DNA of 64,000 nt. Origin: Thalassorhabdomicrobium marinisediminis. GTDB taxonomy: Bacteria > Pseudomonadota > Alphaproteobacteria > Rhodobacterales > Rhodobacteraceae. The translations under genes and the position numbers were made by a program. Within the stretch, counting starts at the first letter, position 1, and every line of letters starts with the position of its first letter. Shown in pieces: positions 17,342 to 19,083 of this stretch. The DNA lies in NCBI RefSeq assembly GCF_003072065.1, contig NZ_QCYG01000007.1, forward strand, positions 62,001-126,000, written 5' to 3'. The notes under the pieces were generated by a model. That model ran no database searches. It was not told where the DNA came from and saw only the letters and a program-made list of their open reading frames with translations.

Positions 17342-17944
17342 CTAGGCTGACGCGCGCTGCGCTTCCATGTGCCGATCCACCATGCGCTGCACCATCGGCG
17401 CGAAATGCCAGTAATCCGGCGTCACCATGTCCGGCCGCTTGCCCGCGTCGTCGAGATAGCGCACCGCAATGATCTGCTCGAAGTTGGGCAGGGCCTCGAA
17501 GGCGGCGACCTCGCCTTCGTCCATCGGCCCCCCTTGCAGGTTGAGCGAATGCACCGAGGCTTCGGACAATCGGCGGAAATACTCGGGGCGGGTCGCGCAA
17601 AGATAGCGTTTCGCGGCCACGTGATAGCGCACGCAGTCGGTGATCACGCTGGGAAAGAACCGCTCCAGCACCTCGGCGCCCGCATCCTCGTGATGGCGAT
17701 CCTCGGTGTCGGTCATCGCAAAGGTGCCGAACTCGCTGGTGAAATGGCCGATGTCGTGCAACAGCGCGCCGACGATGATCTCTTCGGGCTGGTCGTTCTG
17801 CTCGGCGATGGTCGCGCCCTGCAGCATGTGCTGGCCCATGTTCACCGGCTCGCCCAGATACTCCTCGTCGCCGCGACGGTCGAAGATCGAGCCGATGAAG
17901 TCCACGATGGTCGCGGGGGTCAGGCTGTCGATATCGGGCTTCAT
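17342..17944 (-). CDS. tmpB: HD-domain di-iron oxygenase, TmpB-like
   Basis: 200 residues. It looks like an HD phosphohydrolase but has the signature of the oxygenase subset (PhnZ, TmpB): Tyr29-x-x-Glu32 (EEYLGEP), His39, the pair His63-Asp64 (LLHDIGH), His85, His108 and Asp165, with ligand spacing close to PhnZ. TmpB cleaves the C-P bond of (R)-1-hydroxy-2-trimethylaminoethylphosphonate to give glycine betaine and phosphate with a mixed-valent di-iron centre. The ATG overlaps the tmpA stop (ATGA), which is the strongest support. Generic annotation would call it a phosphohydrolase. Substrate assignment is inference from family and pairing. Confidence 0.78.
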
Positions 17945-19083
17945 TCCGCCGCCTCCGGCATCTCGCGGCGCAGCGCGTCATGGGTCGAGCGCAGCCCGTC
18001 CATATCCGCGTAACAGCCCTGCAGCCAACGGGTGCCGCTGCCCGAATAGCCCTTGCGCGCGTGCAGCACGCGGGTGTTGTCCACCACGAACGCCTCACCG
18101 GGGTTCAGCCGGAAGGTGACCTCCATCGCCTCGTCGTCGATGATCTCGCCCAACCGGCGATAGGCCGCATAATAGGTCGCCATCTTGTCGAAGGGCACAT
18201 CCGTCACCGCGGCGAGCGAGCGGTTGTTGAAGCGCACGCCGATCAGCTCCCCGTCGGGGGCAAGTTCGATCATCGGCCGGCGCGACGTCAGGCAGACCCC
18301 CGCTTCGCCTGCATATTCAAACCGCGCGCAATGATCGGCGAGCACGTCGAAATAGGCCGGATTCTCCTTGCGCAAGCGGCGCGCGGCGGCGAAGCCGTCA
18401 ACCACCATGTTCTCGCCCCCGGCAGCAGAGCTTTCCAGACAATAGAGCACCTGCACCGTCGGCACCGGATCGCGGTAGGGGTTGTCCGTATGCGCCTGCA
18501 AGCCCAGCCCGGTGAAGGCAAGGTTCGTGGGGTTCACCTCGGTGCGGACCTCGAACAGGCGGCCGTAGTTCGTCTCGCGTACGTGGCCGAACAGGTCGAC
18601 GATCTTGAACAGCGCACCCTCTTCCACGGGGCCGTTCACGACCTTGCCAAAGCCGTAGCGCGTCACCTGCCCCAGCCAGTCCTGCAACGCCGCGTTCTCT
18701 TGCGACAGGGCCGCGAAGTCGCCCGTGGGGACGCGGTCCATCAGCCCTGAATCCCAAGGCTCGATCTCTGGCCCCACCCAGCCGCGTGGCTGGCTGTGAT
18801 CGCGGTCATAGGCGTGCGCGTCAAGCCAGGCCAGATCAAAGGCCACCGTCTTGTCTTCGGGCACGAAGGTCACAGAGAGCGTGTTGCCCGAGACATCGGC
18901 GTGCGCGATCCGGGTGTCTGCCGGAATGTCGCGCAGGGCGATCAGACGCTGGTTGTTGCCCGGCGCGCGGGTCTCGGGGTCGCTGGCGTTATCGCGCAGC
19001 CAGATGGCGTGGAAACGCCGGGTGCCTTGGGCCGTGGTCAAAGCAAGCGAGCTGCCGAAGTCCTCAACAGTCACATCTGTCAT
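17941..19083 (-). CDS. tmpA: 2-trimethylaminoethylphosphonate dioxygenase, TmpA-like
   Basis: 380 residues of the gamma-butyrobetaine-hydroxylase/TauD fold, Fe(II) and 2-oxoglutarate dependent. Iron ligands are His198-x-Asp200 ([12 protein letters not shown]) and His341 ([10 protein letters not shown]), with Arg352 placed to bind 2-oxoglutarate. The N-terminal DUF971-like domain ([18 protein letters not shown]) lacks the zinc cysteines usual in true butyrobetaine hydroxylases. TmpA hydroxylates C1 of 2-trimethylaminoethylphosphonate for TmpB, encoded next and coupled. A divergent LysR gene lies 96 bases away. The main alternative is gamma-butyrobetaine or another quaternary-amine hydroxylase. 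Confidence 0.78.

Follow-up and report, generated by a model that had tools for sequence, protein, structure and literature searches.

Two overlapping genes on the minus strand, tmpA and tmpB, lie beside a divergent LysR-type regulator gene in the 64,000-nucleotide stretch of DNA that was analysed (the window), which comes from Thalassorhabdomicrobium marinisediminis. The features of the locus and the evidence for each are as follows.

17342..17944, minus strand: tmpB, HD-domain di-iron oxygenase of 200 aa, the proposed C-P-cleaving enzyme for (R)-1-hydroxy-2-trimethylaminoethylphosphonate ((R)-1-hydroxy-TMAEP); evidence NF049941, PDB 6npa, residues
17941..19083, minus strand: tmpA, 2-oxoglutarate/Fe(II) dioxygenase of 380 aa, proposed C1 hydroxylase of 2-trimethylaminoethylphosphonate (TMAEP); evidence NF049936, PDB 6npb, residues
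17941..17944, minus strand: ATGA stop/start overlap of tmpA and tmpB, 4 bases; a 4-base overlap is found in many fetched relatives
19084..19179, no strand: tmpA-lysR intergenic region, 96 bases, probable shared regulatory region; evidence sequence
19141..19149, minus strand: CTAATTTGA, candidate LysR operator or promoter element, in near relatives only; single copy in the window
19180..20034, plus strand: divergent LysR-type regulator, probable regulator of tmpAB; evidence Pfam HTH_1 and LysR_substrate, recurrence beside tmpA

Both tmpAB ORFs start with ATG in the ORF list, and their third-position GC (0.86 for 17342-17944 and 0.84 for 17941-19083) is like that of other window genes. A sequence-only reading of this DNA had described two genes overlapping by ATGA, and bases 17941-17944 are indeed common to both on the minus strand. 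Convergent with tmpB and 53 bases from its stop codon, 14403-17288 encodes a 961-aa PAS/histidine kinase with receiver-like parts, as read from the translation. Its only matches among the 39 loci fetched from other genomes are weak ones in L040 and L049, at a distance of about 7 kb.

The dioxygenase scores 598.4 bits (E 3.9e-180) against NF049936, the NCBIfam equivalog model for TMAEP dioxygenase, which has a cut-off of 400. Its closest solved relative in a sequence search of the PDB is Leisingera TmpA (PDB 6npb, E 2.2e-154), and the alignment with that protein, a check that the sequence-only reading had proposed and that was run here, gives 63% identity (233 of 369 aligned positions). The Fe ligands named in that reading, H198, D200 and H341, are all found at these positions. 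The solved TmpA binds phosphonate through N187, N287 and R288, which a section of PMC9296572 describes as hydrogen-bonding it, and all three are kept in the window protein; G151, Y214 and N287 also align with the same residues in Leisingera TmpA.

The HD protein scores 343.5 bits (E 2.8e-103) against NF049941, the NCBIfam equivalog for (R)-1-hydroxy-TMAEP oxygenase (cut-off 300), a model that matched none of 14 control genomes. Leisingera TmpB (PDB 6npa, E 1.9e-108) is its closest solved relative in the same kind of search, and the corresponding alignment, also run as proposed, gives 82% identity (158 of 192 aligned positions). Y29, E32, H39, H63, D64, H85, H108 and D165 stand where they had been reported; an HD metal set with a mobile YxxE loop is described for TmpB and PhnZ in PMC8177086. 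The TmpA and TmpB model matches are far beyond chance. With both proteins over specific NCBIfam cut-offs and the phosphonate-binding residues of TmpA kept, the coupled TmpA/TmpB pair is upheld, and the earlier reading was right on genes and residues. Its expectation that generic pipelines would misannotate both proteins applies to Pfam-level names (TauD, HD) and fails for NCBIfam, which names both.

Relatives were surveyed in two overlapping sets. Using the TmpB model to search 295 genomes sampled from the family-level group to which the window belongs, we found a match over the cut-off in 38, the window's own included. G145, the sole genome of the same genus among the 295, gave no TmpB match, and this is counted against the TmpAB reading. 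The 39 fetched loci come from the 37 other genomes over the cut-off, from G133 (just under) and from G007 (weaker); TmpA is found in 37 of these loci (L053 and L069 are without it), and a divergent LysR stands beside tmpA in 18 of the 39. The TmpB of L053 (genome G036) has 68% identity and the full residue set; the 20 kb fetched for this locus contain no match to TmpA. In L035, L036, L039 and L048 the start of a 222-aa protein weakly similar to ureidoglycolate lyase (PF04115) overlaps the end of tmpB by 4 bases, and the two are probably co-translated there because of this overlap; the same protein also occurs near tmpB in L043 and L060.

The second set comes from a scan of named genomes that gave 228 TmpA relatives, the best 80 of which were kept for their closeness to the window TmpA, so that their figures describe near relatives. 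The set includes Mameliella, Tritonibacter, Phaeobacter and Aliiroseovarius, with one record each under the label Comamonadaceae and Granulosicoccaceae, and we take it to be mostly Rhodobacterales with some Rhizobiales. In these best 80 of 228, TmpB adjoins TmpA in every case, N187, N287 and R288 are kept in every case, and the full TmpB residue set is present in 79, the remaining match starting too late for three residues. Upstream, 61 of the 80 have a divergent LysR resembling the window's and in the same arrangement.

Residue 287 divides the 37 TmpA relatives, with N in 26, A in 7 and S in 4. In a quick tree a branch separates the 11 A/S287 rows (L031, L034, L052, L058, L059, L060, L062, L065, L066, L067 and L068) from Leisingera TmpA and the window TmpA, which stand together in the N287 group and in different sub-branches of it; the support of the branch holding this group is weak (SH-aLRT only 79%), which is counted against the TmpAB reading. 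The TmpA columns without a residue common to both groups are 151, 214 (Y/H versus A/S) and 287, and column 59 is only partly different; residue 214 is A or S in the 10 A/S287 rows compared. Between the same groups no TmpB column is group-specific. These column counts omitted the long branches L062 and L064, plus L069 for TmpB. A gene for an MFS carrier, a Zn alcohol dehydrogenase-like protein or an enolase-superfamily dehydratase-like protein (clusters c5, c4 and c3) lies near 10 of the 11 A/S287 loci, and no member of these clusters was found in the 26 N287 loci, on crude ORF calls and flanks of up to about 10 kb; in some loci tblastn finds a tmpA or tmpB that the caller overlooked. Two A/S287 TmpA proteins were tested, and both they and their TmpB partners exceed the respective cut-offs. 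Judged from these residues and neighbours, it is possible that the A/S287 group has a different or additional substrate, a warning that the NCBIfam TmpA name may span more than one.

These differences bear on one rival of the TmpAB reading, namely that the window holds a TmpAB-type pair acting on a related quaternary-ammonium phosphonate other than TMAEP. Since position 287 and the operon partners vary among homologues that pass the NCBIfam TmpA model, the model alone is no proof of one substrate, and a TmpA identity of 63% would leave room for a shifted one. However, the window TmpA keeps N187, N287 and R288 and matches Leisingera TmpA at G151, Y214 and N287, and we regard another substrate as improbable. 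The overall likeness to the Leisingera caerulea enzymes (6npb, 6npa) extends over family, catalytic residues, phosphonate ligands, YxxE loop and two-gene operon, although identity is 63% and 82%, respectively, and the window protein belongs to another sub-branch of the N287 group.

Another rival makes the dioxygenase a gamma-butyrobetaine hydroxylase (GBBH) of the carnitine pathway and the HD protein an unrelated hydrolase. The window TmpA still scores 397.5 bits against the gamma-butyrobetaine dioxygenase model TIGR02409 and matches GBBH structures at E 6.6e-45, and it shares with gamma-butyrobetaine dioxygenase (BBOX) the sequence family, the Fe/2OG ligands and a quaternary-amine substrate, which for the window is proposed to be TMAEP. 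That score nevertheless falls below the cut-off of 414.75, whereas the cut-off of the TmpA model is exceeded by 198 bits, and R288, present in all of the best 80 of 228, is replaced by alanine in BBOX, as in the GBBH structure 4bg1. The HD protein carries the YxxE oxygenase loop and has TmpB as its best match, and we give the carnitine-pathway explanation very little credence. A pair of the PhnY/PhnZ kind, with 2-aminoethylphosphonate or hydroxymethylphosphonate as substrate, seems to us just as far-fetched. After TmpB, PhnZ is the solved protein nearest to the HD protein (E 4.7e-32), and PhnY/PhnZ, which act on 2-aminoethylphosphonate, likewise work in two oxygenase steps, one of them by an HD di-iron enzyme (PMC8177086), but the window protein stays under the cut-offs of both the PhnZ-type (Phn-HD) model TIGR03276 (195.3 against 214.6 bits) and the hydroxymethylphosphonate dioxygenase model (133.8 against 300 bits). 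Its partner is of the TmpA/GBBH type and matches four models, none of them a PhnY model. A better match to gamma-butyrobetaine hydroxylase together with a non-oxygenase HD family, which the sequence-only reading had named as a reason to give it up, was looked for, and the closest rival models, those of PhnZ type included, are all below their cut-offs. DfmD of dehydrofosmidomycin biosynthesis (9j0j) belongs to the same superfamily and, according to a section of PMC9296572, also takes TMAEP as its substrate, but the window TmpA matches it at E 9.9e-28 only; the same section places Ser183 of DfmD where TmpA has N187, the residue present in the window.

The best matches of the LysR protein are GcvA-type and choline-sulfate-type LysR models, all below their cut-offs, and it is just 37-40% identical to the LysR of the Leisingera-type branch (nine loci, our own grouping). 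The element CTAATTTGA has a single copy in the window, against 0.07 expected, and stands 66-84 bases before tmpA in 6 of 19 LysR loci (window included) and in none of 19 loci without LysR; in 300 mononucleotide shuffles any 9-mer was common to at most three loci. The best 80 of 228 named relatives, a set that overlaps the first, hold it in 9 of the 61 with LysR and in none of the 19 without. It is confined to near relatives, and its absence from the other 52 LysR-bearing ones is counted against the TmpAB reading. A motif trained on the nine Leisingera-type LysR loci gave no signal in the window, where 481 of 500 shuffles equalled or exceeded its score and where it did not pick up CTAATTTGA; in the branch to which the window belongs, 5 of the 10 LysR loci (window among them) had at most 7 of 500 shuffles doing so. 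A PHO box was sought in the 150 bases upstream and the first 30 bases of tmpA with an alphaproteobacterial consensus, and Pho-box control was rejected: the best match had 5 mismatches in 14, and 56% of 300 shuffles were equal or better. It is a reasonable inference that the LysR protein regulates tmpAB.

Beyond lysR, 20039-27590 encodes an M24 peptidase, SBP5, an XRE-cupin regulator, DppBCDF and a GAF protein, a peptide-type ABC cluster. M24 peptidase, SBP5 and DppBCDF were considered as pathway parts and set aside, given that none of the 39 fetched loci has the set in the window's arrangement; nor are the genes of 20039-27079 (M24, SBP5, XRE-cupin, DppBCDF) kept as a set beside tmpAB elsewhere in the 39 loci or the best 80 of 228. 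The partial matches are an SBP-Dpp set of weak similarity (23-39%) in L055, 4-8 kb downstream, DppBCDF-like genes about 4-7 kb downstream in L046, a weak match to M24 (24%) in L066, 5.9 kb upstream, and single ABC-ATPase matches in L032, L036, L050, L052 and L063. Within the flanks of up to 3 kb of the best 80 of 228, which reach M24, SBP5 in part and DppB never, there is no M24, SBP5 or DppB match; 16 of them match the ATPase DppF and 1 the XRE-cupin regulator. All of the cluster except M24, an SBP-Dpp-XRE-GAF set, recurs at 46-78% identity in G002, where the TmpB model finds nothing.

In the window's assembly (3.43 Mb, completeness 100) the TmpB model has a single match, the tmpB described here. 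PhnJ of C-P lyase has no match in it, the best phosphonatase score (30 bits) is far from the cut-off of 220, and a second TmpB/PhnZ match is absent too, so the pair may be the genome's main C-P-cleaving route among the routes searched, which were these three. By hand tally, PhnJ occurs in 146 of all 295 genomes and in 18 of the 38 whose TmpB passes the cut-off, and TmpB presence is thus not associated with C-P lyase. The sole hit over the cut-off to Phosphonate-bd in the genome (27.3 bits, cut-off 27) reads as part of an amino-acid-type ABC system; a binding protein specific for phosphonates was not found in this genome, which is counted against the TmpAB reading. Two sarcosine oxidase alpha genes over the cut-off and one BCCT carrier gene suggest a plausible outlet for the product and a plausible kind of importer, respectively.

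The pathway is known from Leisingera caerulea (PMC10574752); according to PMC10590968, no other route of TMAEP degradation had been described by 2023. Its chemistry is established in print for the Leisingera enzymes, and the window pair is a further example of the described pathway. We infer both that the window pair acts on the same substrate and how the cell would use its products. TmpA, with Fe(II), O2 and 2-oxoglutarate, would hydroxylate TMAEP at C1, and TmpB, with a mixed-valent di-iron site and O2, would split (R)-1-hydroxy-TMAEP at its C-P bond into phosphate and glycine betaine. The ATGA overlap probably couples the translation of the two genes, and the divergent LysR probably controls them, with the substrate or the product as inducer and not the Pho system. 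We conclude with high confidence that this is a canonical tmpAB operon converting TMAEP to phosphate and glycine betaine, with probable ATGA co-translation and LysR control. As far as the sequences tell, the reaction assigned by the sequence-only reading is very probably right; the organism would, as that reading also proposed, use TMAEP as a source of phosphate and betaine.

More tentatively, and as a less likely extension, TmpAB could be the main C-P route of an organism whose LysR senses the substrate and not phosphate starvation, with the phosphonate chiefly a betaine source and phosphate a by-product. If this were true, the betaine could serve as osmolyte and as a source of carbon, nitrogen and methyl groups. 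A PhnJ-less genome with a conserved LysR partner would be a good test case for whether methylated phosphonates meet a demand for betaine or for phosphate.
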